57,157 nt of DNA, from positions 1-57,157 of IMG/VR virus record IMGVR_UViG_3300025133_000125. One strand, written 5' to 3'. The number at the start of each line of letters is the position of its first letter. Positions within the stretch are counted from its first letter, which is position 1. The notes below the pieces were generated by a model that did no database searches, was not told where the DNA came from, and saw only the letters and a program-made list of their open reading frames with translations. Origin of the DNA: a virus. The position numbers and the translations under genes are program-made. Of this stretch, positions 1 through 51,381 are shown one piece after another.

Positions 1-3000
1 AAAGCACCAGTATCAATCCCAATATCATCACCAGCTAAATTTGTTGGGTGTGTATATCTTGTAGCCCCACTATTATAAGCACTTACTACAGTAGTATTAT
101 TAGAGACTTCAGTATCAAAATCACTAACAGCTGATGCGGCTATTTGTCCTCCAGTTGTAGAACCTGCGTGTGTATGATTTGCATTTACCCAACCAGCTGC
201 AGCAATAGTTGGTGTTGTTAAAATAAGGCCTGCAAGTGTTAAATCACCACTACCTCTATTGTGTGCAATTGAAGTGGTTCCAATATAAAATGTATCTGCC
301 GGTTGAACTGCTGAATCAGCTGTTGATTGGGCTGCTGCGGCATTGGTTATACCAGTTGATCCTCTATCGTAAGCCGCTTTAACTCCTGTCGCGCTTGCTC
401 TCGTTGTACTTGAAGTTGTGCTGGTTGAATCTGTTATTGAAGTATCACCAGTATTTGTACCACTCTGTCCAACTAAATATGTTTGATTGATTGCAGTACC
501 TTGCCAAGTACCTGTTCCTATTGTACCAACAGTTGTAATATTTGCCTGAGTAAAGTGTTCATTAGCTGCGAAATTTGTTGTTGCATCATGATCAATCTGT
601 GCTGAACCACTGAAGATACCTTGACTATTAATAAATACTAATGTATCGCTATCAGTATATGAGGTTACACCAGTTAAACTACTACCATCACCAAATACTT
701 TACCAAACGAGCCAGTTGAAGTTGATGAACCGCTTACGTTTCCACCGTAATTAGAGCCACTTATAGTTCCATCAACTCTTAATTCAGAACCACCTATATG
801 AAAAGCAACTGCTGGTGTACCTAAACCATGTGTTCCTATTCTATTTGCAGATGCATCGGTTTTAAATAGAGGATTATTAGAACTACCTTTAATGGTTACA
901 TCTACATTATTACCACCATCATTGAATGTAATATCGTGTGGAGCACCAGAAGAATCGTTTAAATCTATGTATGATATTCCACCAATATTAAATCTAAGTC
1001 TATCAGGTGTAAAATTAAGATAAGTGTTATCATCACCTTTATGATAGATGTATTGTGAAACTTCAATATTACCATCTGCTATTACGTGACCAAACGAACC
1101 AGTTGAAGTTAATGAGCCACTAACTCCGCCACCAATATAAGTTATTGCGCTTGATGATAATTCACCTTGCCAAGATCCACTAATAGTAGCTGAACTTAGA
1201 CCCGGCTGTAGTGCATCTAATTTATCAAACATTTCATCAGACATTACACCCCAGTTACTAGAATCAGCTAATGGTAAAACTGCATTGGTTCCATCAGACG
1301 ACACTATGTCTAATTTTGTACTATCGCGACTTACACTGAGGTTTGTGGATACATTTGTAACTTTCGCAGTATTAGCTGCCACTGCTGTATTATTAGCTAC
1401 TTCAGTATCGAAATCACTAATTGTTGAAGCTGCTTGAGTTCCTGTATGATTACCTCTATCAATATAATAAGAACCATGTTGTCCATCGAGCAAATCCGCA
1501 TCTAGGGCACTTAAAGCACCATCAACTGTTTTGATTGCTGTTAATATTTCTGCAGCACTTTGATCTGCGGTTGCGCCAGATTCAACAGAATCCAATAAAG
1601 TTTCTTGAGCATCTGTCATTAATCTTTTGTTTGATGCATCTGTAAAATTAGCAGTACCGAATGTGGGTGAAGCACCACTAATTACTGATTGGTCTAATGC
1701 TTTTACATCTGCAATAGATGTTAACTCACTATCCATTAACGCGCCAGCATTAGATCCAAGACCAGAATTCCAAGTGCCATTTGTTATTGTTTGACCACTC
1801 AATACTGAGTTTATTGTGGCAAATGGTAAAATATGTCTATGATTTCCTTTTGCATATTCTGCAACATTACCGTCAGATGATACTGTACCTATTCCTTCAG
1901 GATCAGCAATATATGCCTGCAAAGCAGGTGCGCCTAGTGATCCTGCAATTTGACTATCATTTGTAAATTGTTCTCTTGAGATAGAAGATCCAAATGTAGC
2001 TAAACCACTGCCGCCTCTAAATTCTATACCTGCTCCTGACATCTTAAAGAAACTATCTTCTGAATTATAAATTAATAATCCTTCTTGGGTCAATTCAACT
2101 TTTCGTGTATTGCTTCTTATTGAAAAATTATCAAATGTTATTTCTGTTTCAGGATATTCTGCTGTTGAACTACCTACTACAGTTTTTGTAAATGTTCTTC
2201 CATGCAAATCTGAATTTACGGATCCTTTATCACCTACAAATAGTGGTTTTTCAATTTGGAATCCTGTATCATCATTTATAGATCCCGTCAATACTAATTT
2301 TAAATGTGTTGCTGTTGCTGGTATTTCAGCAGAGGCACCAAAACTACTATATTGACCGCTTCCTAAGAAATACTCACCATAACCATTAGATGCAGTAAAT
2401 TTAGCTTCAGGTAAAAATGGTACCCAACCTGCTGATGATGAATATTCAACTCTAAAATATTGCGGTCCTAGTGCTCTATCTTTGCCTTTTCCACCAAATG
2501 ATGAACTATATCTTGCAACTGAGGCAAATGACAATGTATCACCTGCAGCTATTGCCACAGATGACGTTACAACTTGGACTAATTCATAAGTATTGTTTCC
2601 TGAATAGTTTCCTGAGCCTTCTGGTACAACTACATCAAGTGTCACATCACCGCTTACAGCCATATCTTCAGAAGGATAAGCAGATCTTTTTGTTAAGCTT
2701 ATATTAACACCCCCACCTTCAGCAAATGACCAACTATTAATTGTACTAACAAAATTTCTACCTGCTGAAAGATCTCCTAATTGTTCTTCAAAGCTCTTAT
2801 TACCACAATATTGAGTGCCTCCTCCAAGTGTTGACAATGATCCTGACTTAATTTCAACTCTGCTTACACCACCGTCATCTTTAATTTTTAATCCTGGTAA
2901 TATGCTACTTAATTCTACAGTATTATCTGTGTCTCTAAGATATGATGTTCCTATATCAAACCCACCTATACGACCACCGCTAAATAAAACATTTGAACCT

Positions 3001-6000
3001 GTTATTTCACCTTCAGGTGTTACTTGAAATTTTGAAGATGAAATAAAGTACTGACTACTTGCATTACCCTCTAAATAAAACGAAGATCCTTGTTGTAATT
3101 TTGTACCATTAATATCAAAGCCTGCAATTTGTCCACTTGTTGCTGTAATATTACCTGTGATCTTAGCAGCTGAAGCAGTAATTTGTCCAGTAGAACCCTT
3201 TAACTTTAATACACCCACCTGGGAATCTATAGTGTTAGATATGTTAAATCCACCAATTGTTCCTGTACTTATATCTACATCATCAAAAGTACCAGTTGTT
3301 GCAGTAATATCACCTGTGATCTTAGCTGCTGATGCTGTTATTTGTCCTGATGCCTTTAATCGTAATCCCGTGTTTCCACTAGCACCACTTGAAGAGATCT
3401 CAGTTGATGTAATTCCAAAACCACCAATGGTTCCTGCTGTATTTGCAGTTATTGTATTAGCTATAATGTCACCAGTAATTGTTGCATCAGTAGCTGTTAT
3501 TGCACCTGCATGTGTAACCCTAAATGCCGGCGTTCCACCTGTCCCTGCTGTAAAGGCATAAGTTTGTCCTGAAGGGTGTATTCCTATACCTGTCGAAGTC
3601 AAACCTGTATTTGCTAAGGTAAAATTGGCTATATTGCCTGCTGTTGTTGCAGTAATTGTATTTGCTATAATGTCGCCTTGAATATTTGCTGAGGATGCAG
3701 TAAGTTGTCCAGATGCCTTAATATTAAATGGTGCACTACTACTTGCAGCAAGTGATGTTGCACCAGCAAAAAATCTTGAATCACCAGCTGAAGATAATCC
3801 TGTGTATGTAGGATCTGTAAAGTAATGTATTGTATCTGACTGAATATTCCAATTTGCGATATTACCTTCTGATGACGTTAATACACCTTCAATTTTTGCA
3901 CCACTTGCTATTAATTGTCCTGATGAAGATACTGCAAAATTAGATCCAAATCTTACATAATATGGATTTGAATTTGAGGGTGTGAAATCTAGATAATAGC
4001 CATCAGTTGGATTCGTGTCAGGGCCTGCATCTGACTTATATAATGCTGCTCCTTCTGCATCAAGAGTTGCATTAGAGCCGGATAATTTATTACCAAGTAT
4101 TTTCCACCCTGCTATTTGTCCTGAAGTTGCTGAAACAGCACCCGACATACTTACAGCAGATGCTGTAATTTGGCCTGTACTTTTTAAAATTAAATTATTA
4201 TTTGTAGAATTTATTTGTGAATCTGAAACACTAAAACCAGCAATTGTTGAAGCACCTTGTATTAGCGCGGCAGATGCTGTAATCTGTCCACTATCTTTTA
4301 AAATTAAGTTATCGTTTGTAGAATTTATTTGTGAATCTGAAACTTCAAATCCACCAATGGACGCGGATTTAAAACTTGCGAATCCTTGTGGATCAATAGA
4401 TGCTGATGCATTAGAAACTGTAGAAGGTGAGCCACCGATAGAAGCTGGCGTTCTAATATTATTTGCAGTTATGTCTCCTTGAACAGTTAATGTGTTCCCA
4501 ACATATTGAAGATAATGACCTGCAGATTTATTTCCTAATAATATTGAAGATCCTGTCATCTGACCTGATGATCTCAAAAATAATGAAGAATCTGATGATA
4601 TGATTGAGGTTGGATCTACAGTAAATCCTGCTATTGATGCTGACTTAAAACTTGCGAATCCTTGTGTATCAATAGATGCTGATGCATTTGCGTCAGTAGA
4701 AGGTTGGCCACCAATTGTTGCTGGCGTTCTAATATTATTTGCAGTTATGTCTCCTTGAACAGTTAATGTGTTCCCAACATATTGTAAATATTGACCATCA
4801 CCTTTGCTTCCAAGTATCATGTTACTAGCTGTTACATTACCCTTTGGTGTTAGATGAAAGTCAGATGAACTAATTTCTATATTACCACTACTACCACTTA
4901 TAAATTGTGATGTTGTAGTACCAACGAAAAAAGCATCTGCAATAACTTCAAATCTTGAAGGTATAGTACTAAATCTTAAACTTCCAGATTCACCTGCTAG
5001 CTCTAGACCAACACCGGCATAATCATCTCCTGAATCTGGTAAAACAGATCCGCTATAAATCATCCAACCAGTATTATTGTTACTTAAACTTGAACTTTTA
5101 AAACCTTGATACTGTACTGACCTTATAAATCCGGATCCGTCTGCTCCGGAGCCACCAGTCTCTGGTAATGTTGATGATACACCGCCCATCTGTATACCAC
5201 TTGATGTTGCGTCTCCGCCAATGAATAAAGACCCACCAATAGAATTATCATTTCCTAAAATATTAAGATTTTCACCTTCAAATTTTACACCGTCTGGGTT
5301 TGAGGGTAATGTTGTTACTACTGTGCTGGATTTATTATTATTTATATCATAAAATTCAAATGCAAAATCTAAATAATCTGGTCTAGTCTGAAGAGGAGGT
5401 ATTGGCGCAATTAATCTAACATATTCAGGGGAGAAATTTGTATCTGAGTTTGGTTTAACTGAAATTTCTGATACTGACCAATGACCACCTGTAAATCTCA
5501 TTTGCAATACAGCAGCTCCATCAGAATCAGGTGTAAATATAGTTTCATATTGTGGGCTTGATGCTCCTACTACACGCCCAGCTGAATCATTAAATTCAAC
5601 TTTACCAATTGCCCTTCCATAGCCTTTATCAGCAAAAGTATTATTTTGTGACATACCAAATGCAGATCCTGACATATGCAGTACTGCTTTAATTTTATTT
5701 TGTAAACCTTCAGAATTATCAGCAATTAATTTTGCACGGAAACTATATTCTGTTCCTGCTATAAAATCCATCTTAAAATCATCTTTTAATTGAAGCTTAA
5801 TCCACTCTTTATCATCATCTATCAATAAATCAGCATTTGATCCGGAGATGTAGATTGAATCTGTTAAGTATTCATTAGGAGAGTACGTCTGTATTGTTGT
5901 TGCTGACTCAGTACCATATTGACCACCTGTTGCAGTCCAGTATGATGTTAATACAGCATCAGAACTAAAAAATCCCATTCTAGATGTGCCAGATGTTGAT

Positions 6001-7126
6001 GTAGGATCAACTAATAGCTCGGGTGTTTCGATAGGCGTATCTATTATCTTTGACCAATTACCAAATGGACCATTATTTTTTACATAACCTGCTACTCTGT
6101 AAACATCGCCAGAAAATAATCGTAATTTTGAAAGCCTTACATCAGCAAATGATTTAAAATTTATACTGCTAGTATCATATTCACTTAATTTTGGCCAATT
6201 AATCTTATAGCTAGATGTTCCAAGCTCTGCCACTCTGTAAAATCCGCTTCCAGAATCGTAAACACCGAAAGGTTTTTGTACCTCTATTGTTTTCTTATTA
6301 ATAACATTTGATATTCTAGATGAATATCCTGGAATTATAGTGTTGCTCCCTGTAGAAAATGATATATTAGGGTTTGGTGCATCAATTGTGATTGTACCGC
6401 CAACCATAGATGATGAAAAATCAGCATCAGCTATTGTTATTGAGTATCGCGGATCTGTTGAATCATACTCTTCATAATTTCCCATAGGATTAAAGCCGTA
6501 AACTTGCTCAGAATAGTTTTGCACCTCTTGGTAGTTATCACCATCGATTGAAAAATTTGTTCCTTCTGTGCCTTGTACAGGTGTACCAACAATAGTACCA
6601 ACTGTTTGTTCATTTGATCCTGTTGTTGATGATTGTTGTGTAACTTGTCCCTTAATAATCTCATAGACATTCAATACTGGCCGCTTATAAAATCTTACGG
6701 GTCTATCATTCGGAATTGTCTTATTTACAGTAATTGTTCTTGTATATTTTACATTATACGTACCTTGCCATTGTTCAGGTATGTCAACATAATCCGGATC
6801 GAGCTCTCCTAATATTGTAAGTGTTGCTGCACCTGCTGGTGTATCTTTGAATACTTCTATTCCTACTCTTACTCCATTACTTTCTGAATAATCATAAACT
6901 GGCTCTATATAAATTGGGTTCCCTAAACTATCTACTAATTCGATTTTTAATACAACATCATTTAATAATTCAGGCGATCCCATTATTAGCATTGAAGACT
7001 TGCCCATAGGCAGTTCAAGTGGGAGATCTGTTATATTGAAGTACTTAGATAACAGCCCTTCTTCAATTTCATAGGCTTGTATTGTATCTAAGTCTTGCAG
7101 GAACGCTGTTTTTTGCTTTTTTGCCA
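1..7126 (-). CDS. Giant tail-fibre/appendage protein, N-terminal part (3' end outside window)
   Basis: The frame is open from an ATG at 7126 (N-terminus MAKKQKTAFLQDLDTIQAYE) to the left edge, giving 2375 codons without a stop in the stretches I translated. Residues 1-250 form a conserved-looking head. Around residues 380-600 there are beta-rich, carbohydrate-binding-like stretches. From about residue 750 to 1360 there are tandem repeats built around GQITAS/NITATSGQIAGF/DI motifs. The later part contains repeated STGSFG-type segments and Ser/Thr/Gly-rich sequence. This composition is typical of very long phage fibres or adhesins that contact the host surface. The gene begins a transcription unit with an ATATTTAT box 17 nt upstream and faces away from the lone plus-strand gene. 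The exact virion position (side fibre, baseplate appendage) cannot be told. The C-terminal tip, which would bear receptor specificity, is missing here. Confidence 0.85.
4369..4508. repeat. Direct repeat copy 1 inside the giant fibre gene
   Basis: About 140 nt nearly identical to 4645-4784, with a period of 276 nt (92 codons). The two copies share the 5' stretch around TTAAAACTTGCGAATCCTTG and a 3' block ending CCCAACATATTG. Divergence is concentrated in the middle. The repeat is in frame and reflects a duplicated protein module. A shorter repeat with a 111-nt offset is seen at about 4188-4230 and 4299-4342. Confidence 0.85.
4645..4784. repeat. Direct repeat copy 2 inside the giant fibre gene
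   Basis: This is the partner of the copy at 4369-4508, offset by exactly 276 nt. The last part, from about 4724, is identical to copy 1. The stronger conservation of this block than of neighbouring repeat units suggests a recent duplication or gene conversion within the fibre gene. Confidence 0.85.
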
Positions 7127-7143
7127 TAATTTACTTTGTGTAG

Positions 7144-26689: not shown

Positions 26690-29600
26690 TTATTCATTAC
26701 TGAAATCTACTGTTAAATTATTATTGTCCCCCTTCTTGTCAACCTTGACAGAATAGGGATTTGTTTCATAAATTTCCACTGCTTGTAGAACGCCGTCAGG
26801 TGATCTTGAGCCATCATTTTTACATCCTTCGTAAGCTAATCTAAAAAGCCCTGTATGACTGTTATAAACAGATTCGTACTCACTATACTGATATGATGAT
26901 GAGTATGCCAATCCTAACGATGCACTTAAAGATGATGAATAAAATGGTATCGTCTCTTTATTAAATGATGATTTTCTAGATGCGGTAATCATAGGTTGAA
27001 AATTTTCAAAAAATATATCAGATCCTCCAGCCATATAAACTTGAGAATCAGCATAGTCGCGAGCTTCTGACAAGGGTTCATCAAGTGGATCTTTACCAAA
27101 TCCTTTTAAAGTGGGCATATAGGTCATTGGCCCTTGCTCTGAATTAAATTTTTCTGTCTCAAATTCATCTCTACTTGATTTAATTGAACCAGTTTGACAT
27201 AATCCTATTGATACGTAATCATGTCTAGATCCTGTTGTTTTTCCTGTCAACACTGTATCAGAAATATTACCCGTTTTAAAATCATAAATACTTTCTGCAG
27301 GTATCGGTAAAACTGATGTTGATGCTGTGGAATATTTAAATAAACTGGTTGGCTCCGGATATGTTGCATCAATTTCTGCATTTTTAGCAATATCTTTGAA
27401 TATAGGTGGTGCTCCCATAACAACTTTTGGTCTTTCTAAAAGATGTGACTCTATTAATAAACCAATATTCTTTTTAGCACGAGCAGGAGCTAGTTTTCTT
27501 ATATGATCAAAAAGGCTAAGATCATAATACTTTATTAATTTGATATAATCCCAAAATCCTTGTCGTGTTGTCCATTTTTTCCAATATGTGTCTGTAATTC
27601 CATCTAAGTTACCATGTGTATATCGTTCCTCATACACGTCACGAGGATCCCCAATATATTTAGCAAAATCCAAGTCAGCAAGTGATAACATAATATCTTC
27701 ATTAATAACATCTGAAGGGGCAAAAAATACCCCCAATTTATTTGAGTCTAATCCAGCGTTATCAAATGAGCTTATCTCTACTCTTTCTGTAGGACTTAAA
27801 TTTGCTTTTCCTCCGTCTGGAGATTTGAGTGTAGCACTTTCAATTCTTATCTTATTAGCTTGTGAACCAAATCCTATTTTAGGAACAAAAGCCTTTTGTC
27901 TATCTGCTACATTGCTAAAATTAATTTCATCAGAGAATCCGGATCCAGTAACGTATACTTGACCATCTGTATGCGTGTAATCTTTTAACCCTTTGGGATT
28001 ATCATATAAGTTAATATAATCATCCATAGATAATCTAAAACTTAAATCATAGTATGATGAACTAGGATTGTTTCCATTAACTGCTTTGGGTGCACCAACA
28101 TGATTCCAAAATGCATTTGCATTAAGTGGTGTTGACCAATATCTAAACTCCATCATAGACCCACTAAATTGTGTACCTATACTACCATCAGCATTTCCAC
28201 CAAGATACCATCTATTAGCGGGAGTAGTACTACCTGTTGTGTACCATCCTGATAATGTACTTCCCGATACTGTCATGCTTCCTGATTCTTTTATTTTAAT
28301 TCGATCCATTCCTGCATCGTAATATCCAAGAAACATATCAAAACTTTGTGTAGTAGCAGTCAAATCATTATCAAAATATTGTTCAGTATAACTATCATCC
28401 ATAGAGCCTGTTCGTCTTCTAACCATTAATGACCAGTACTCGTTATTATAAATCCCATGATCAGTAATACTCATACTTTGCACACTGTCAGATCCGCTTA
28501 CAAAAAAGTTAATTTGCCCCTTGCCATCAATGGCCTGATCAGCAGGCCCAAGCACTGCTGTAGCAATTGCACCACTTCCCACAGAAGTATTCTGATGTAT
28601 TGTTATTGTGGGCGCGCTAGTGTAACCAAAACCACCATTTGTCACAGTAATTCCTGTAATTCTACCATTTGCAGGATTTACAGTCGGCGTTCCCGTGGCT
28701 CCGGAGCCTCCTCCACCAGAAAATGTTACCCAAGTTTCTAATGGCAAATAATCTGATCCTACCACGTCCATAGTCACACTACTTATAGGAGACCCAACTG
28801 TTGTCTTAAGATAAATTGCCGCCTCTGTTTTGCCATTACCATCGAGTTTATTTGCTAATATCTGATTTGCCTCATAAGGTGTTTTAAATCTCATTTCAAT
28901 AGTATCAGGTGCTTTTTCTTTTGATGTATGATACCACGGCACTTGAATAGATTGTCCTCCCTTAAAATCTAATGCCTTTGTAAATTTTTGTTTTATTTCA
29001 AAATCTGGTTCTCCTGTCGGTCTTGGGCCTCCGTATTCTTGTATTCTTAAAATAGAGGTTGGTATACCATAAGCAGAAAGTAATGCCTTTAAAGATTGTT
29101 TCGTACCTTTTGTTTTTAGCATATACGGCATTGTAGATAAAATTCTATTCCATATCTCCCTTGTTACATCTTTTTGTGATTTTTTTGTGTATCTGATATT
29201 ATAAATACCACTTTTAGAGCCAGATTCTGATAGACCTAAATGATATTGAGGAAGCGAAACAAGATCACGCCCTTCTATCATATCAAAACCAAGTGAGTTA
29301 GCTACTGGTTCTACTAATGCTTGTGAAATTCCTTTTGTTACATCTTCACTTCTATCATGAACATCTGATAATGCTTTTATATGCGTCCAAATAATATCGT
29401 AATGGTGTCCCATCATATCCATAAAATGTAAAAATTCTATATTTTCTCTATCAGTAGAAATATGCTCAGGTAAAAGATTAACTAATCTATTTCTATTATT
29501 TCTATCATAAAGACGTGCAGTGTCAGCTGCGCTACTATACCACTCTGTAAATTGAGAGCTGGTAACTGAATATAAAACATATGGACTAGTTAACGTTCCA

Positions 29601-32600
29601 TCTCCAGATATTTTTGGTGCACTGTTATCAAAAAATTCACCCAAAGAACTTGTTACATATGCTTCATGTTCAAAATACATATAATTTTCAAAATCATCAA
29701 AACCATTAATCACACTTCTAACAGAATTTTCCCATCTTCTTATTTCAGAAGCTGAGCCACTTACAGCTGATCCAGCTGTATTGAGTAAATAACCAGCAGA
29801 GTCACCTGTTCCACTCAATGATGCACTGTTTGCTTTATATGTTTCGATATTTGTTAATTTTATTTTAAAATTATTTATTCTCTTTTCTGCAGAACTAAAA
29901 TGAACAAAATTTTCATATTGCCTATAGTCTATATTAATATTAACATTTTCTAAGCTTCCACTTAAAATTCTATCTTCTAATTGATCCTTAACGCTTTGTT
30001 CATTGCCAATTAAATCAGTATGTGTTTTATATTCTGTTGCTCTATCTCTTATGGGTATTTCTACATCTGACCAGTTAGGTTGTCTTAAGACGGTTTCAGG
30101 TAATTTTTCTTCAATGAAAGGATTAAGATCAATTGTTTCTCTAAGTGTAGGTGTAACTTCTTCAGCAATAAAAACTGTATCAAGAGGTTCAATTCCAACT
30201 TCAAGTGGTTTTATTAATTTGTATGCTATGCTTCCTGGATATGTTTCAGAACTTATTGGCTTGAAATTTGTTATTAGTGATTTTGAATCATCATTCGGAA
30301 TAATATATGTATAAAGATTATCTGCATCTTTTGAGCGAAAACGAACAAAGTAATCATCAAGTGTAGTTGTTGATAAATTTACTGCGTCAGGTCCCGTCAT
30401 TACAGCATTAATTTCATTTCCATATTCTTCATATGATTTGTTTAGTATTAATTTTTTTTGTGTTTCTAAATCATTTTGAACATCTAAAATTTTTCCTTCA
30501 TATCTTGCATAAATATTTTCTGATCCACTTGGTTGTGATATATAGCCTACTGAAAACCCTGAATCAAATGATGAGTACTTATTGACGCCATAGCTTGATA
30601 CTATTCCACCTTGTTCTTCTGATGCTTCAGTATATGTTTTATCAACTTCAATTTGATTTTCATTGAATATATTTGTTATTGTAAATTCTAAAGGACCTAA
30701 TACAGCATTTTCCTGTACTTCAGGTCGATCTAGTGAACTCTTAATAATTGAAAGATCAAATTTATCTCCCCACACTGTACCAAAAGCCCCATAATGCCCT
30801 CTTACTTCTATAAAAATAGGCATGTCTAGTGCAAAAAAATCTGTAATTTCAAATTCTAAAGTTGCTTTTTCCCATTGATTATATTCCTGGCAAGGAGAAT
30901 GACTAATAGCACTTGGCCCTGAATTAAGTGCTTCTGTTCTATATGTTCTTCGATATAATGTTACATTTTCACCTTCAACCTCATATCTAGTAGACCAACT
31001 AATAGAGCCGCCTCCTTCATATCGTGTAGTCCAATCACCGTAATTGGTGCCACCAATATTTCTATTCCATACAAAGACACCGTCACTAGAAATATTTACA
31101 TTTGTTGGATAGTCTTCATAAGAAGGGTAATAGAGTTCAGCGGCTAAATACTTTGATCCGAGTTGACCCCCGGGCAAGGCGGTGTATGCAAACTTTCTAA
31201 AAGCATTTGGACTCATCTCATCTTCACCCGGCCATACTGCTGCATCTAATCTTGCCATTGTCCAATATCCAAAGTAATCATCAGTATAATTACTATCCGC
31301 ATTATATGAAAAGTCCCATTCATTTGTTGTTACCCAATACCACTTGAATGCTTCTGATTGTTCAATCTCGCCTGCATCAGTTATATAATCACCGCCAGCT
31401 CCTGATGCAGTAGGATTGTCTACGCCATATTGATCCAAAAAGGAAGAGACTTGATCTCCATCTGTATTCGCCCAATTGGGTTCTAAATCTACTGGTGCGT
31501 GATTATCACTATACGCAGCAAAATTATCTGGACCTCCATAGTGTAAATGAAATGCTCTATCCTCTGCCCAGACATCGTCATCTGTTACCATTAACGGTTC
31601 AGGTGGCGCTATGTCTGTTGCAGTCCAATGATTTATTCCTACCCATAATCCTTTTCTACCACCTTGTTCAAAATCAATAGGATCGGATTTTTGCATCCAT
31701 GTAACCAGAACTTTATCACCAGCCCTTACTCCATAAGCAGATAATGCGCCAATTCCTTTATAGTTTTTATTATTTATATTATCACCCTGATATGAGTAAA
31801 TTTGTAAATGTCTATGTGCATAATCATTTTTACTAGCAAGCACATCTTCACTTGGTACTACTTTTCCAAATGCATCTCCTGCGTCTCTTCTTGCTTGCAC
31901 CATTTGATCAAAAATATAATCTTGATAGTTTAAATCTGGAAAACACATTGCAACACCGCCGTCTACACCTTTACCTGCTTTCCAATGAGCATGATAACCT
32001 ATGTCTGCTGTGCCAACATAATATTGTGACCAAGCTAAACTAGATAATCCGTTACTCCATCGTCTAACATCCTTGTCAGTTGTCACCCTTATTGCTTGAC
32101 CATTTAATGCAGCATCTGGAAGATGATAATAATATGGAGATCCTCCTTCGTCTCTTTTTTCTTGATTATTTTGATGCACAACTGCGACTTCTCCACCCTG
32201 TGTTGGGTCTCCTACAGCACCATTTGCGGCCTGCATATCCCATTCATAAATTTTTTCACTTTCAATTTCAGATATTATAAAGTCAGATGATAAATCTAAA
32301 ATAGGATGTGCATCATTTATTATAAGTTTTCCACCAGCCATTATTGATTTAAATTCATCACCGTCTGCTAATTCACCAATTATAATTTTCCCATCAGGGT
32401 CATCAAATTTTAATATAGTATCTATTGGCTGTTCTTTAAATAATTCATCATTACTACCTTCTCTATGAAATGGTGTCAAGGTAACTCCAGGTTCTAATTG
32501 TGCTCCTGCAGTTAAAAAATATTTTGTGTTAATATTAGCTAAATTTGATGGGTCCCAATTATCTCTTGGTTCCCATATAATTCTTATTAACAGCTTATTA

Positions 32601-34120
32601 GATAGATTTGTATCTGATAATGTAAATGTAAAAGAGTGTCTTTGCCATTCACTCGTCAAAATAACCCACGAAGAGAATTGTGTTGATGATGTTACACCCC
32701 ATGGGTCAGCATGTGCCATGCATCTTAATTTATCTCCTGGTTCACCTTTTACATAACAACTAAATGTCATTGTATAATCTTCTACAATTATTCCTGGTGG
32801 TAATGGGAAAACTGGTGTAGTTTGAAATTGTAAATTACCATATATTGCAGATGATATTGCCAATGGCTCATTTTCACTTTTAGCACCACCGCCCTCTGTT
32901 CTTGGTAAATTTAGGTATGATGAGTCTAAATTCAAAGTATTCTGAAATATTGCCTTAATAGCAAATTGACCAGCTGGATTAGGATCTATAACATTTTCAA
33001 GTCTAAGTGCTTTTTTATCATCAAATTCTACAGCATCACCACTAAAATTGATCACACCATCATTTGGCCAATTACCCCCACTTCTCCAGCCAAATGTCGT
33101 TTCCATCGTCCTACCCTTTAATAAGTTAGGGGTTACTTCAAAAATATCTGTTGAGGGTTCAAATGATTCTTCTTCTCTAATTTCATCAATTATTCTTTTG
33201 CCCATAAAATATGCATTATTAATTCTAATAGTGCCGTTCATAAATGTCATTGGCATATTATTATTAGTATTAAATGATAAAATATTAGAAGAAGGATTTC
33301 CAAATGATGCAGCTGGTGTAGGATCTTCATCAGAGAACCAATTAATACAATTGTATGCAGCAACTCTAAAACTTTCTAAATATTCTTCATCATTAATAAA
33401 TGAAGGGGAAAGCAAAACCTCAGTTCTATCTCCTGAAATTTTTTGAATGATATATTTATTTTCCCTGGGAAAAAGCTTGTCACCCTCTACAGTTTCTGAA
33501 TCTAGATCATCTTGACTAGCATAAAAATATTCATCTGGTTTTTTCTCATAGTTACCATTAAATATTTTATCATTTTCATTAACTAAAACTGGAAAAGGGC
33601 TTCCAGCTTGTAATCTTAAAAAATCAAACTTAACTTTAAATCTTCCTCTTTTAAATCCAAGCTTTCGTAATATTTCTCCAGCGTCAATTGCTGTAATAGC
33701 GGGTTTTCCTGGCATTTCTTGATTAACATATGAGTTAATTTTATCATTTGTAACATATTGAGATGAAATTAAACTACCGTTATTGCCGTAAACACATACT
33801 CTAATTAGGTCAGCTTTGTCTGCGCCAAATGCAAGATCAGGCCACTTTAAAGAACCATATTGTTCATTTTTTAATTGATCATAAAACTCAACATCTCTAA
33901 ATGACTTATAATCAAGTGTATCTGGGCGCCTAATTAAATCATAAATCTTTTTAGGTATATCAACATCTCTATTAAGTTTTTGATCTACCAGACTATAATG
34001 TAAATCTAAGTCTAGCTTATCATCTTTAACTGTGCGAACAGAAGGCAAGCTTCCTTGAGCACCAGGGTTGCGACCCGATGGTGTCCTAGATTTGCCACTA
34101 TATTTTTGTGTTTTTGCCAT
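26690..34120 (-). CDS. Very large tail structural protein with lectin/CBM-like domains (2476 residues)
   Basis: It starts MAKTQKYSGKSRTPSGRN. A beta jelly-roll-like region near residues 340-560 ends AGAQLEPGVTLTPFHR, typical of carbohydrate-binding modules. Near 1350-1700 there is a helical region (HFMDMMGHHYDIIWTHIKAL, MPYMLKTKGTKQSLKALLSA) common to baseplate/tail proteins of this phage group. A LamG/concanavalin-like region follows at about 1750-2020 (RWYLGGNADGSIGTQFSG, SMMEFRYWSTPLNANAFWNH). The C-terminus contains LIKYYDLSLFDHIRKLAPAR. The gene lies between baseplate-wedge genes and paralogous structural genes. It is probably a baseplate-attached receptor-contacting protein. No stop interrupts the 7.4 kb. 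Confidence 0.8.
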   Translation of the reverse strand: MAKTQKYSGKSRTPSGRNPGAQGSLPSVRTVKDDKLDLDLHYSLVDQKLNRDVDIPKKIYDLIRRPDTLDYKSFRDVEFYDQLKNEQYGSLKWPDLAFGADKADLIRVCVYGNNGSLISSQYVTNDKINSYVNQEMPGKPAITAIDAGEILRKLGFKRGRFKVKFDFLRLQAGSPFPVLVNENDKIFNGNYEKKPDEYFYASQDDLDSETVEGDKLFPRENKYIIQKISGDRTEVLLSPSFINDEEYLESFRVAAYNCINWFSDEDPTPAASFGNPSSNILSFNTNNNMPMTFMNGTIRINNAYFMGKRIIDEIREEESFEPSTDIFEVTPNLLKGRTMETTFGWRSGGNWPNDGVINFSGDAVEFDDKKALRLENVIDPNPAGQFAIKAIFQNTLNLDSSYLNLPRTEGGGAKSENEPLAISSAIYGNLQFQTTPVFPLPPGIIVEDYTMTFSCYVKGEPGDKLRCMAHADPWGVTSSTQFSSWVILTSEWQRHSFTFTLSDTNLSNKLLIRIIWEPRDNWDPSNLANINTKYFLTAGAQLEPGVTLTPFHREGSNDELFKEQPIDTILKFDDPDGKIIIGELADGDEFKSIMAGGKLIINDAHPILDLSSDFIISEIESEKIYEWDMQAANGAVGDPTQGGEVAVVHQNNQEKRDEGGSPYYYHLPDAALNGQAIRVTTDKDVRRWSNGLSSLAWSQYYVGTADIGYHAHWKAGKGVDGGVAMCFPDLNYQDYIFDQMVQARRDAGDAFGKVVPSEDVLASKNDYAHRHLQIYSYQGDNINNKNYKGIGALSAYGVRAGDKVLVTWMQKSDPIDFEQGGRKGLWVGINHWTATDIAPPEPLMVTDDDVWAEDRAFHLHYGGPDNFAAYSDNHAPVDLEPNWANTDGDQVSSFLDQYGVDNPTASGAGGDYITDAGEIEQSEAFKWYWVTTNEWDFSYNADSNYTDDYFGYWTMARLDAAVWPGEDEMSPNAFRKFAYTALPGGQLGSKYLAAELYYPSYEDYPTNVNISSDGVFVWNRNIGGTNYGDWTTRYEGGGSISWSTRYEVEGENVTLYRRTYRTEALNSGPSAISHSPCQEYNQWEKATLEFEITDFFALDMPIFIEVRGHYGAFGTVWGDKFDLSIIKSSLDRPEVQENAVLGPLEFTITNIFNENQIEVDKTYTEASEEQGGIVSSYGVNKYSSFDSGFSVGYISQPSGSENIYARYEGKILDVQNDLETQKKLILNKSYEEYGNEINAVMTGPDAVNLSTTTLDDYFVRFRSKDADNLYTYIIPNDDSKSLITNFKPISSETYPGSIAYKLIKPLEVGIEPLDTVFIAEEVTPTLRETIDLNPFIEEKLPETVLRQPNWSDVEIPIRDRATEYKTHTDLIGNEQSVKDQLEDRILSGSLENVNINIDYRQYENFVHFSSAEKRINNFKIKLTNIETYKANSASLSGTGDSAGYLLNTAGSAVSGSASEIRRWENSVRSVINGFDDFENYMYFEHEAYVTSSLGEFFDNSAPKISGDGTLTSPYVLYSVTSSQFTEWYSSAADTARLYDRNNRNRLVNLLPEHISTDRENIEFLHFMDMMGHHYDIIWTHIKALSDVHDRSEDVTKGISQALVEPVANSLGFDMIEGRDLVSLPQYHLGLSESGSKSGIYNIRYTKKSQKDVTREIWNRILSTMPYMLKTKGTKQSLKALLSAYGIPTSILRIQEYGGPRPTGEPDFEIKQKFTKALDFKGGQSIQVPWYHTSKEKAPDTIEMRFKTPYEANQILANKLDGNGKTEAAIYLKTTVGSPISSVTMDVVGSDYLPLETWVTFSGGGGSGATGTPTVNPANGRITGITVTNGGFGYTSAPTITIHQNTSVGSGAIATAVLGPADQAIDGKGQINFFVSGSDSVQSMSITDHGIYNNEYWSLMVRRRTGSMDDSYTEQYFDNDLTATTQSFDMFLGYYDAGMDRIKIKESGSMTVSGSTLSGWYTTGSTTPANRWYLGGNADGSIGTQFSGSMMEFRYWSTPLNANAFWNHVGAPKAVNGNNPSSSYYDLSFRLSMDDYINLYDNPKGLKDYTHTDGQVYVTGSGFSDEINFSNVADRQKAFVPKIGFGSQANKIRIESATLKSPDGGKANLSPTERVEISSFDNAGLDSNKLGVFFAPSDVINEDIMLSLADLDFAKYIGDPRDVYEERYTHGNLDGITDTYWKKWTTRQGFWDYIKLIKYYDLSLFDHIRKLAPARAKKNIGLLIESHLLERPKVVMGAPPIFKDIAKNAEIDATYPEPTSLFKYSTASTSVLPIPAESIYDFKTGNISDTVLTGKTTGSRHDYVSIGLCQTGSIKSSRDEFETEKFNSEQGPMTYMPTLKGFGKDPLDEPLSEARDYADSQVYMAGGSDIFFENFQPMITASRKSSFNKETIPFYSSSLSASLGLAYSSSYQYSEYESVYNSHTGLFRLAYEGCKNDGSRSPDGVLQAVEIYETNPYSVKVDKKGDNNNLTVDFSNE

Positions 34121-43017: not shown

Positions 43018-43760
43018 GAGAATAAATCCTTTAACTTATCTGTATCTAAATCTTTTACCAGTTCCTCTTCCTTAGATTCACCTTTCATATATTTTGGGAA
43101 ATCAATTCTAGAATCCCCTGACAACATAAACTTTTCCTTTTCCTGTCGTGCTGCTGATGCGTCTGCATAATGAATGATGTGTGGCAAGTTTGTTTTCATT
43201 GCCTTCCATTCTGCACCCTCCATATAATAGGACTTATTTGCTTCTTCATATAACCCGTCAGCTAATCTAAGTCCTAAGTATTCTGATTCTGACATATCAA
43301 TTTTAAATTTATTAAGAATCCAAATTGCCCTATCAGTTACTGTCATATAATGAATTGCAGGATTATGCACATAATATTGTTGCAACTTTTTTGCTCGCCA
43401 TTCATCAGTATTAGTTAGATAATAATCTTCATCCATATCACCTACCTTACCCAAGTCATGAAACAATGCAGCAAATACTACTGATTCTTCTGTAATGTCA
43501 TCAACAAACATATCCTGTGACTTGAACAATTCATAATAAGATTTTGACCATCCTATAATATTGAGTACATGAGCAACATAACCACCTGGAAAAGCATTAT
43601 GAAACCAGCCTGTACCTGAAGCAGGTGCTAGAATCATTCTCTCTTTAAAATGATCATGTAACTCTTTTATTTTTTCTAATCTCTCACCATCAAATGTTTC
43701 ATCGATAATCTCTTGTAACTTATCCCAGTTCTCACTGATTTGTTCTGCAGTTAATCTCAT
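43014..43760 (-). CDS. HD-domain phosphohydrolase, 248 residues
   Basis: The start at 43760 (MRLTAEQISENWDKLQEIID) is chosen because AGGAG precedes it and it forms an ATGA overlap with the upstream stop; a longer frame would add 13 codons. The HD motif set is present: H in GGYVAHVLN, HD in AALFHDLGKVGD, and a distal D in HIIHYADASAARQ. HD proteins hydrolyse phosphate esters, often (deoxy)nucleotides or cyclic nucleotides. In a phage this could feed nucleotide metabolism or degrade a defence signal. Substrate not deducible. Confidence 0.75.
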   Translation of the reverse strand: MRLTAEQISENWDKLQEIIDETFDGERLEKIKELHDHFKERMILAPASGTGWFHNAFPGGYVAHVLNIIGWSKSYYELFKSQDMFVDDITEESVVFAALFHDLGKVGDMDEDYYLTNTDEWRAKKLQQYYVHNPAIHYMTVTDRAIWILNKFKIDMSESEYLGLRLADGLYEEANKSYYMEGAEWKAMKTNLPHIIHYADASAARQEKEKFMLSGDSRIDFPKYMKGESKEEELVKDLDTDKLKDLFS

Positions 43761-44272
43761 GCATTCTCCTGTGCCCATGGCATTTTTATAATATAACAAC
43801 CTTCAAACTTATAAGGTTGAACATGTTTTGACTCTAAAATATCTACTACATTTACCCACTTAGGATTCATAGTATCTCGAACCTGATAAATTCCATCCTT
43901 TTCATCAGCCCCTTTAAGTAAAATATAATCACCATAATCAAATGGGCCTCCCCATCTTTTCAATAAATTTCTAGAAAGTGCAACAAACTTATAATTTGAT
44001 GCCTTATCTATTCTAATTTTTGTACCATCTGCTGTGATGTCGGGCGTCTTATCTGTTTGTGGAAAGATTGGTTGATACATAGTTACATCTACTTCAATTC
44101 CATATTGATAAAATTCATCCAGTTGATATTGTAGATTCTGTTTTTCACTTACCAGTGTCTCATAATGAGTGTGATAAATTTCTCTATGCTTTTTCATAAA
44201 ATAAGTAGATACGTAACCATTCATTACAGTGATAAAGATAATTAACAATATGTACTTTTGTTGATTTAGCAT
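43757..44272 (-). CDS. Membrane-anchored 3D/double-psi-beta-barrel-like protein, 171 residues
   Basis: The start at 44272 (MLNQQKYILLIIFITVMNGY) is chosen because AAAGGAG lies at ideal distance; a longer frame starts at 44338, inside a repeated promoter-like element. A membrane helix is followed by a coiled stretch (HYETLVSEKQNLQYQLDEFY) and a domain with KFVALSRNLLKRWGGPFDYG and KDGIYQVRDTMNPKWVNVVD, which resembles 3D/RlpA-type double-psi barrels (often glycan-active), with acidic residues in Asp/Asn positions. It could cut or bind peptidoglycan. Confidence 0.55.
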   Translation of the reverse strand: MLNQQKYILLIIFITVMNGYVSTYFMKKHREIYHTHYETLVSEKQNLQYQLDEFYQYGIEVDVTMYQPIFPQTDKTPDITADGTKIRIDKASNYKFVALSRNLLKRWGGPFDYGDYILLKGADEKDGIYQVRDTMNPKWVNVVDILESKHVQPYKFEGCYIIKMPWAQENA

Positions 44273-44303
44273 GGCGTGCTCCTTTTGATTAATAGAATCT
44301 AAT

Positions 44304-44335
44304 AACATTTTGGTATACGCGTAAAGGCTTTTTTT
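44304..44335 (-). promoter_or_regulatory. Repeated promoter-like element, copy 1 (between tmRNA and 44272 gene)
   Basis: A 32-nt stretch identical at 29 positions to 49493-49524, with core TATACGCGTAAAGG (plus strand) flanked by T-runs. On the sense strand it reads CCTTTACGCGTATA. It lies 31 nt before the next gene's ATG (26 nt in copy 2) and 8-13 nt after the previous gene's end in both cases. TTTACG could be a -35 element. See findings. Confidence 0.5.
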
Positions 44336-44348
44336 CATTTATTTTTTG

Positions 44349-44766
44349 TGGACCCGGGGAGATTCGAACTCCCGTCCGGCCTGCTATTAACAATGAGTCG
44401 TTACAGCTTAGACGGTTTCCATTGGTAGAAACTGCCAAACAACCATGCGAATTCCTTTTGCTCAGAACATATTCCTTAACTGGCTTTTAGTTATACTCCA
44501 AATCACCAACGAGTTTGTGTTCAACTTATTTTATGCTCGGGTGTTGAACAACCCAAGAACTTAAGCAGCGTATGCGTAAGTTGGCTGGTGAGCCAGCTCA
44601 GCGCCAATATATGGTGCTGAATCAGTATCGGCCAAATGCCAATCTATCACCAACCCGTCTAGCGAATTATCGCCATATTGGTTTTGTGAGTCTTTTTTCA
44701 CGAGACCTACTCAATCTCTGCTGCACTCATTTGTCAAAAAACACCCGTCGATTTCCATACGGGCCC
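44349..44766 (-). ncRNA. ssrA: tmRNA (one-piece), complete
   Basis: The RNA starts GGGCCCG and ends CGGGTCC plus discriminator A. These pair as a 7-bp acceptor stem with G at position 3 opposite U, the G-U pair that marks alanine charging. The 5' part contains AUCGACGGGUG, matching the conserved tmRNA segment UCGACGGG. The T arm is GGGAG-TTCGAAT-CTCCC. In the middle a short reading frame (44632 to stop at 44561) encodes a tag of 23 codons beginning ADTDSAPYIG and ending YAYAA, Ala-rich at the end as usual for proteolysis tags; the exact resume codon is not certain. The CCA is not fully encoded. It rescues stalled ribosomes and tags the nascent protein. The order of parts is unpermuted. Confidence 0.93.
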
Positions 44767-44780
44767 ATATCTTTTAATTT

Positions 44781-45029
44781 TTAATTATCCCAGCCTTCTG
44801 ACCACTGGCTAATATCTTCATCTGTAACTCTTAAATCTTCTAATAGTAACTCAACTGCTGCCCAATCTTTGTCCGATATTGCAGCTTCTAAACGCATAAT
44901 TATTTCTTCAACTGAAAGCATATGACTTACTCCTCTCTTAGTTGAAGCTAAATATGGATAATCTACTAAATTTAAACTAGTTGCTGACGTATTTTTAGGG
45001 TCAGCAGCCCACGGTAATATAACTTTCAT
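44781..45029 (-). CDS. Small hypothetical protein with possible nested second start
   Basis: 82 residues beginning MKVILPWAADPKNTSATSLN, with GGAGG before the ATG. Inside, at 44921, a second ATG (MLSVEEIIMRLEAAISDKDW) is preceded by AGAGGAG at good distance, so a 46-residue form may be made as well. The C-terminal part is a helical pair (AISDKDWAAVELLLEDLRVT). Its stop lies 15 nt upstream of the tmRNA 5' end. Function unknown. Confidence 0.55.
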   Translation of the reverse strand: MKVILPWAADPKNTSATSLNLVDYPYLASTKRGVSHMLSVEEIIMRLEAAISDKDWAAVELLLEDLRVTDEDISQWSEGWDN

Positions 45030-47394: not shown

Positions 47395-47545
47395 TTTTCT
47401 TGTTCCTCTCGGCTCCAAAAATCTTTTCCCAATTTTCAGCATACTTTGATTGACTTCCGCGTCTTTTATCACCCTTACCAGCATCAGAATATTTTTTTGT
47501 TACCTTTGGTTCCTCTTTTTTTTGTGAAGATTTTTTATCACTCAT
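47384..47545 (-). CDS. Small basic phage protein, 53 residues
   Basis: An ATG at 47545 opens [20 protein letters not shown], then [20 protein letters not shown] and [10 protein letters not shown]. The GKGDKRR...Y..NW..IFG pattern is a recurrent small-protein family in phages. It is coupled by ATGA to the deformylase gene stop. Function unknown. Confidence 0.65.
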
Positions 47546-48150
47546 AGACAACACTTTTTATATTTCTTACCACTACCACAATGACAAGGTTCGTTACGAC
47601 CAGTTTTCTTTTTACTTACTATTGGTTCTGGTTTATTTTCTCTGTCCATAATAGTTTTACCGTTTAGGTGATCAATCTCATGTTGAATGCAAACTGCTTC
47701 TAATATTCTTTGTTCTTGATCTTGCTTGTGTCTATCTTTTTCCCACGATCCTTTACCTTCTTCACCACTTTCTTCTCCGCTAAAATACCAACCACTTTCT
47801 TCTTGTTCAGTTTTTATTATTACATTTTTATATCGTTTAGTGTGAACACCTTTTTTTGGAAATGATAAACAACCTTCATAATAATCTATCTCATCCCATT
47901 GTTCTTCAATGACAGGATTAATTAAAATAATCGGCTCCCGAACATTAACCACAGCAACAGAAGCATCAATCCCAACTTGATTAGCAGCAAGACCAATGCC
48001 ATCCTTCCGCTCTGCGAGGATAGTGAATAAATCTTTCGCAATATGTAGTCCTTCATCTACTGATACCTTTCGTAGTTTTTTGTTAATGACTGGATTGTCA
48101 TTCTTAAAACAATCTATTACTTCATGTTGATGATATGAAAATCTAGTCAA
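47542..48150 (-). CDS. def: Peptide deformylase with C-terminal SEC-C zinc motif
   Basis: A 202-residue protein with TTG start at 48150 (no ATG is available near the N-terminus). All three deformylase motifs are present: [10 protein letters not shown] (51-60), EGCLSFP (92-98) and HEIDH (157-161, metal ligands with the Cys of motif 2). It removes the formyl group from nascent proteins. An acidic insertion (about 117-148) follows the EGCLSFP region. The last 19 residues ([19 protein letters not shown]) are a complete SEC-C zinc motif, as at the C-terminus of SecA, where it contacts SecB and ribosomes. Deformylases are known in cyanophages; the SEC-C tail is unusual. Neighbours are coupled. Confidence 0.9.
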
Positions 48151-50898: not shown

Positions 50899-51381
50899 CT
50901 ATGATATTTTCACAAAGGTTCTTTTTGGTTTTTCAGGTTCTATCTTTGGTATATCAATAGACAAAATACCATCTTTAAACCTGGCTTTGATATTGTCACC
51001 GTCTAAAGATTCACCTAGCGTAAACCTACGCTCGAAAGCTGAGTGCTTGAGTTCCTTACGAATTACAGTCGCACCTTCTTCCATAGCTCTTCCTATAGCA
51101 CCGTGTTTTGTACCCTTTATTGTCAATACTCCGTCTTCAACATCAACTGTAAGATCTTCTTTTGCAATACCTGGGATTTCAGCAACTACGCCAACTAAAT
51201 CATCTTTCTCGTATACGTTGACTTTTGGATATGCAGAACCTTCAAAAGGTTTTACACCAACTTCGCTCATAAAATCTGGGAAGTTGTTTTCAAATAACCT
51301 ATCAAATAGGTGATCGAAAGGGGTTAAAAAGTTTTCTCTTGAAATTGTTGGAAAACCTTGTTTTCTGACTACTAAGCTCAT
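50899..51381 (-). CDS. Small heat-shock protein, Hsp20/alpha-crystallin family
   Basis: A 160-residue protein. The alpha-crystallin domain is clear: YPKVNVYEKDDLVGVVAEIP, GIAKEDLTVDVEDGVLTIKG, then ELKHSAFERRFTLGESLDGD, NIKARFKDGILSIDIPKIEP. The N-terminus contains FDHLFDRLFENNFPDF. Hsp20 holds unfolding proteins and is carried by many T4-like marine phages. It begins with a good ribosome-binding site (AAAGGAG). The upstream region has three TGTCATA repeats and the downstream one a structured RNA. Confidence 0.92.
   Translation of the reverse strand: MSLVVRKQGFPTISRENFLTPFDHLFDRLFENNFPDFMSEVGVKPFEGSAYPKVNVYEKDDLVGVVAEIPGIAKEDLTVDVEDGVLTIKGTKHGAIGRAMEEGATVIRKELKHSAFERRFTLGESLDGDNIKARFKDGILSIDIPKIEPEKPKRTFVKIS

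Follow-up and report, generated by a model that had tools for sequence, protein, structure and literature searches.

Phage tmRNAs have mostly been proposed to be spare copies of the host gene, and the locus analysed here raises the question whether a tmRNA gene carried by a phage can be more than that. It lies in a stretch of 57,157 nucleotides of viral DNA (IMG/VR record IMGVR_UViG_3300025133_000125, hereafter called the window), for which a complete phage tmRNA had been predicted at 44349-44766 from inspection of the letters. The location was correct; the start was off by 3 nt (44346), and the strand, which had not been given, is minus. The covariance model of the tmRNA family (Rfam RF00023) matches the minus strand at 44346-44766 over its full length with 74.5 bits (cut-off 47), and the match is collinear over the whole model (positions 1-374), which identifies the gene as a complete one-piece tmRNA and not a two-piece (permuted) one. 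This agrees with the earlier view that the unpermuted form speaks against an origin from alphaproteobacteria or marine picocyanobacteria. The tRNA-like domain is complete (7-bp acceptor stem, G3-U70, T arm, UCGAC), and the signature UCGACGGG, the G3-U pair, the canonical T arm and the frame ending in YAYAA, on all of which the original prediction was based, can each be found in the window. Since the 3' end reads ACAA, CCA is not encoded. The RNA folds better than every shuffled sequence (MFE z-score -4.0). ARAGORN did not report a tmRNA at 44346-44766 of the window, and a promoter scan around the gene detected sites no more numerous than in shuffles. The gene and its conserved RNA elements are as follows:

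44346..44766, minus strand: one-piece tmRNA (ssrA) gene (full-length RF00023 match, 74.5 bits)
44760..44766, minus strand: 5' strand of the acceptor stem, GGGCCCG, whose G3 pairs with U70 (kept in relatives)
44744..44751, minus strand: D-loop-like signature UCGACGGG (seen in the window sequence)
44720..44738, minus strand: 5' strand of the long P2 helix, with the 3' strand at 44387-44407 (covariation)
44686..44718, minus strand: pseudoknot PK1, S1 GAGAU/GUCUC and S2 UGAGU/ACUCA (model alignment; conserved; covariation in S1)
44519..44557, minus strand: pseudoknot PK2, S1 CUUGGGU/ACCCGAG and S2 GUUCAAC/GUUGAAC (covariation in S1, compensatory changes in S2)
44357..44373, minus strand: T arm GGGAG-UUCGAAU-CUCCC, 5 bp (window sequence and alignment)
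44350..44356, minus strand: 3' strand of the acceptor stem, followed by ACAA (window sequence and relatives)

Related phage contigs in IMG/VR were reached via neighbouring proteins, then with a DNA pattern, and then by an independent search at the peptide level. Fifteen of the 50 contigs derived from neighbouring proteins contain a tmRNA above the cut-off, and 14 of these 15 encode a long tag. Together with the DNA pattern, this source yielded at least 76 distinct long-tag phage tmRNAs, 46 of which are below 90% similarity; the peptide-level search resulted in 63 distinct tags, and the two sets overlap. Loss of pairing in the acceptor stem or the pseudoknots of close relatives had been named as evidence that would count against a tmRNA. 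The pairing is retained: all seven acceptor pairs are present in 70 of 76 relatives and the G3-U70 pair in 69 of 76, and compensatory changes preserve PK1, PK2, the P2 helix and the tag hairpins. PK2 is clear, with compensatory changes; PK3 and PK4 align poorly to the RF00023 model.

The tag is the only part of a tmRNA that marks proteins. In this gene it is at least threefold longer, and selection maintains it in dozens of marine phages:

44564..44674, minus strand: tag frame of 37 codons, GDNSLDGLVIDWHLADTDSAPYIGAELAHQPTYAYAA, with the resume codon GGC at 44674-44672 (purifying selection)
44561..44563, minus strand: tag stop codon TAA, within the H5 hairpin (window sequence)

This frame ends in YAYAA and lies outside the usual range of short tags (about 8-15 residues), the commonest length in the current tmRNA database being 10 (PMC11915505). 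Its resume codon is at gene position 93, and two bacterial controls with the tags GENNYALAA and GESNYALAA start at position 96 according to ARAGORN. PK1 ends at 44686 and GGC starts at 44674, so that the resume codon falls within the downstream spacing of about 10-12 nt seen in tmRNAs. Long tags of the relatives comprise 34-43 codons, always in frame, with a core SLxGLxIDWHLA and an end QP(T/S)YAYA(A); about half end in YAYA rather than YAYAA, and YAFA also occurs. The single exception in length is L150, in which CAA stands in place of the stop codon and the frame continues for about 10 more codons (QPTYAYAQVSELSNTRT). Matches to the peptide motif in IMG/VR were confirmed as relatives in 123 of 128 cases, and both the tmRNA 5' and T-arm signatures accompany 59 of the 63 distinct tags from the peptide search. 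Contig G032 (L096), a relative, has an ordinary short tag, DNYTQYAYAA, which indicates that long and short forms coexist in these phages.

A phage-specific tag had been proposed, and the long form with its conserved insert bears this out; the 37 conserved codons, the RNA helix within them and the adjoining gene for a small acidic protein are additional to what had been noticed before. The IDWHLA tag peptide has no match in 50,697 named phage records, and named phages searched at the DNA level, with the entire tmRNA as query, likewise gave no match. A weak match of the tag to Vibrio phage GR28A (E = 6), which comes without demonstrated tmRNA context, was set aside. Among the other proteins of the fetched loci the motif has one unrelated chance match only. 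The tag has no significant match in Pfam or PDB, and AlphaFold predicts no confident fold for it (pLDDT 62); it is thus conservation, and not a stable structure, that suggests a binding role of the tag.

All of the 46 non-redundant tags have lengths that are multiples of 3 and differ by in-frame indels only. Their tag frame is open in 46 of 46, and stops interrupt the other two frames in 44 and 46 of 46, respectively. Across 29 independent pairs, the tag frame has a pN/pS of 0.32 and the other two frames have 1.30 and 1.53 (Fisher p about 7e-27). As the DNA pattern behind most tags fixes parts of codons 7-13, the unbiased test is provided by the codons from 16 to the end, where pN/pS is 0.33 (Fisher p about 2e-17). 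For codons 1-15 it is 0.31, with values of up to 1.59 in other frames, and for the variable middle 0.45 versus 1.02-1.04 (Fisher p 7e-6). Low values confined to the tag frame indicate that the tag peptide is under purifying selection. We conclude that translation begins at GGC and not inside the insert, where ARAGORN starts. When 19 long-tag phage genes were run through this program, 9 were missed and the other 10 were given a shortened tag; tag databases derived from such tools would therefore miss the long form. The shortened tags (L097, L102, L107, L155, L159, L237, L238, L240, L243, L249) start at least about 14 codons late, inside the insert, and the gene is missed altogether in the window and nine relatives.

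The coding region of the tag is itself structured at the RNA level:

44662..44673, minus strand: helix A, hairpin GCGA-UAAU-UCGC over the first tag codons (alignment of relatives)
44646..44655, minus strand: 5' strand of helix B (codons G-L-V-I), pairing with 44583-44592 (covariation)
44583..44592, minus strand: 3' strand of helix B (codons ...H-Q-P) (covariation)
44628..44642, minus strand: helix C, small hairpin UUGGC-AUUUG-GCCGA inside the insert (alignment of relatives)
44558..44582, minus strand: H5 hairpin with the final codons of the tag and its stop codon (alignment of relatives)

Helix B (GGUUGG.NAU with AUN.CCAACC) closes the insert and contains compensatory changes. Of the 46 tags, 42 can form its pair 26:12, by A-U, C-G, G-C or U-A, compared with a mean of 23.5 and a maximum of 33 in shuffles. 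In the Gly-Leu of the peptide-search tags, Gly is encoded by GGG in 62 of 63 and Leu by TTG in 59 of 63, whereas the codons for Ile, His, Leu and Ala show synonymous variation. This difference indicates that RNA pairing accounts for at least part of the conservation of Gly-Leu (GL) and Gln-Pro (QP), and that IDWHLA is conserved mainly through the peptide. The coding loop between PK1 and H5 is threefold longer, and helix B probably keeps it compact. These observations are all computational: the fold of the RNA, the helix within the tag, and selection of the translation type over the entire tag.

The tmRNA gene is flanked by two small genes:

44781..45029, minus strand: gene of a candidate partner, a small acidic protein with probably two helices (predicted fold); the gene ends 14 nt upstream of the tmRNA
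43757..44338, minus strand: gene for a 193-aa protein (phrog_21574), directly downstream (neighbour conservation)

Homologues of the small acidic protein adjoin the tmRNA in 47 of 71 long-tag loci with enough upstream sequence and are nearby in six more. In a comparison of 257 loci, 116 with the tag motif have such a homologue, and the only two loci that have one without the motif are the same contig, with a short-tag tmRNA. Members of the family share the core ..LxxAxxxxDWxxVxExIExL.. and an acidic tail and are tightly linked to the phage tmRNA; searches of PHROGs, Pfam and PDB gave no significant match for the small acidic protein. The small acidic protein may be a partner of the tmRNA. Cold-shock protein genes are located between the two genes in three loci. 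SmpB was found in 0 of 20 phage contigs, mostly incomplete, and we therefore assume that SmpB of the host is used; among 20 contigs, again mostly incomplete, ClpP was found in one and Lon in none. A ClpP-type protease gene is present at G053:C1:79453-79947 (L256), in a contig with a long-tag tmRNA. Other protein-quality genes, for peptide deformylase and Hsp20 (47542-48150 and 50899-51381, minus strand), are located a few kb upstream of the tmRNA in the window.

Comparison of the tag with bacterial tags had been suggested as a way to the host. A search of 84,980 species genomes from bacteria and archaea yielded one match to the IDWHLA motif, on a short contig in the bin bacterium TMED198; this contig is probably phage, because the same small acidic gene lies upstream. 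The tmRNA of the bin itself has a short tag, ADYGYAAAA (ARAGORN). Tags in the phylum of TMED198 include GENNYALAA, GESNYALAA, ADNYAYAA and ANNYAYAA, the first two of which we take to be Bacteroidota tags. The ends of the phage tags match short tags of one bacterial phylum, probably the Bacteroidota, and together with the 3' end lacking CCA they suggest a Bacteroidota-like host. Comparison of baseplate, HD-domain and primase proteins places Flavobacterium phage immuto and Microcystis phage Mel-JY01 nearest among named phages, with 48% identity or less, and an uncultured megaphage is also among the nearest. Tag ends and nearest phages taken together make a Bacteroidota host likely for the phage of the window. 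The description of the genome as T4-like is apt only in a loose sense, with baseplate wedge proteins, a primase, an SbcC-like protein and an ATP-dependent ligase in its favour. The window also contains two giant genes. One, at 3-7127 (minus strand), extends beyond the contig end and encodes more than 2375 aa; the other, at 26690-34120 (minus strand), encodes a protein of 2476 aa that matches nothing in Pfam.

The reading that we prefer, with a probability of roughly 0.6, is a functional phage tmRNA which rescues ribosomes with SmpB of the host and in which a degron of the host type is extended by a phage-specific recognition insert. What we infer in this reading is that the RNA is charged, that SmpB comes from the host, that tagged proteins are degraded and that the insert has a recognition role. 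During infection, the phage tmRNA would borrow alanyl-tRNA synthetase, EF-Tu and SmpB from the host; once charged, it would enter ribosomes stalled on broken mRNAs, translation would resume at GGC, and the ribosome would be released at UAA in H5 after addition of the 37-residue tag. This tag would consist of three parts, namely a host-type start (GDN/GEN), a peptide-selected insert of about 25-30 residues around SLxGLxIDWHLA that is closed off by helix B, and a host-type C-terminal degron (YAYA/YAYAA). The insert would most likely be an extra recognition element passing tagged chains to a particular protease or adaptor. The YAYA end in about half of the tags implies that the classic ClpX signal is not strictly kept. 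Ribosome rescue and rerouting of tagged proteins, the two roles envisaged in the original prediction, are both plausible. A lengthened and selected tag predicts a specific receptor and, more tentatively, the bipartite tag might belong to a phage-specific trans-translation pathway, with the insert serving as the handle by which a dedicated receptor of the phage or the host, perhaps the small acidic protein from the upstream gene, takes hold of tagged proteins. Truncated proteins arising during mRNA degradation would then be sorted apart from host-tagged ones, and might for example be spared, recycled quickly or sent to a chosen protease.

Rather unlikely is a switch of protease, in which the long tag would take proteins away from ClpXP and deliver them to a different AAA+ protease. 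The tags of Mycoplasma have AFA at their end and are substrates of Lon, and by analogy the unusual, YAFA-ending tag of Mesoplasma shows that tags can change protease (PMC3985003, PMC8138137). Many phage tags end in YAYA or YAFA; half, however, keep an AYAA end, which is also seen in the presumed host phylum, and a phage Lon was not found in the 20 contigs. We consider it improbable that the phage tmRNA mainly titrates SmpB, AlaRS or ribosomes of the host and thereby blocks host trans-translation. There is a precedent in the TLD-only tmRNA of phage DS6A, which inhibits the endogenous tmRNA according to the passages citing it in PMC4131195 and PMC11915505, and the 20 contigs without SmpB would fit; a decoy, however, needs neither a selected frame of 37 codons nor a stop codon nor pseudoknots.

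Two further explanations deny that the insert is part of the working tag, and the frame and codon evidence led us to reject both. An insert that is an RNA-level element (a structured insertion or mobile palindrome), open by chance and followed by a short working tag at the end, could account for three RNA helices in the tag region, one of which (helix B) covaries, and for the ARAGORN tag starts inside the insert of ten relatives. It is very improbable in view of the exclusively in-frame indels and of pN/pS, which lies at 1.02-1.59 in other frames but at 0.31 in codons 1-15, upstream of the ARAGORN starts, and at 0.45 in the middle; moreover, GGC has the usual spacing to PK1 and the ARAGORN positions 136-171 do not. 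Hardly credible is translational bypassing, in which the ribosome would skip the insert closed by the hairpin, in the manner of T4 gene 60, and produce a short tag resembling GDNSLD-TYAYAA. A helix does bracket the insert at both ends, and the tag minus the insert resembles bacterial short tags, yet a bypassed gap could lose its frame, and 46 of 46 lengths are multiples of 3; in addition, the insert is under codon selection, and matching take-off and landing codons are not seen at the helix ends.

A functional tmRNA with an extended tag can be compared with several known systems. Bacteroidota-type tmRNAs (tags GENNYALAA, GESNYALAA, ANNYAYAA) share with the phage genes the one-piece form, a G-E/D-N start, a YA(L/Y)AA end and a resume codon at nearly the same gene position, but their tags are parsed as about 8-10 residues, in contrast to the phage tags, which have 34-43 residues and include a conserved insert together with an additional RNA helix. 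Phage tmRNAs had been called rare; they are indeed uncommon (about 2.3% of 18,146 phages; PMC9004378) and yet well known, tailed phages with tmRNA genes including the mycobacteriophages Bxz1 and Wildcat, Bacillus phage G, methylophage Melnitz and Maribacter phage Panino. The tmRNA of Melnitz is two-piece, as are 53 of 133 unique phage forms (PMC9004378), unlike the one-piece form of the window, and the 50,697 named phage records lack the long IDWHLA tag. In open-access full texts we found no earlier description of a widespread long-tag phage tmRNA family with peptide selection and a helix within the tag, which is weak evidence of absence. The tag of Mesoplasma florum is of unusual length; its C-terminus AFA is close to the YAYA/YAFA of the phage tags, but it is otherwise unrelated in sequence, encoded by a cellular gene and read by Lon. 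The megaphage LR756508, an uncultured, related phage, also has a long tag of 36 residues, GVNNADYESAGFTAEDFAQMDGESLYHGSERKPAAV, which has no sequence similarity to the IDWHLA tag. The same 484-kb genome (L234, L236) encodes a second tmRNA-like RNA of 112 nt, which comprises little beyond the tRNA-like domain and resembles the DS6A form.
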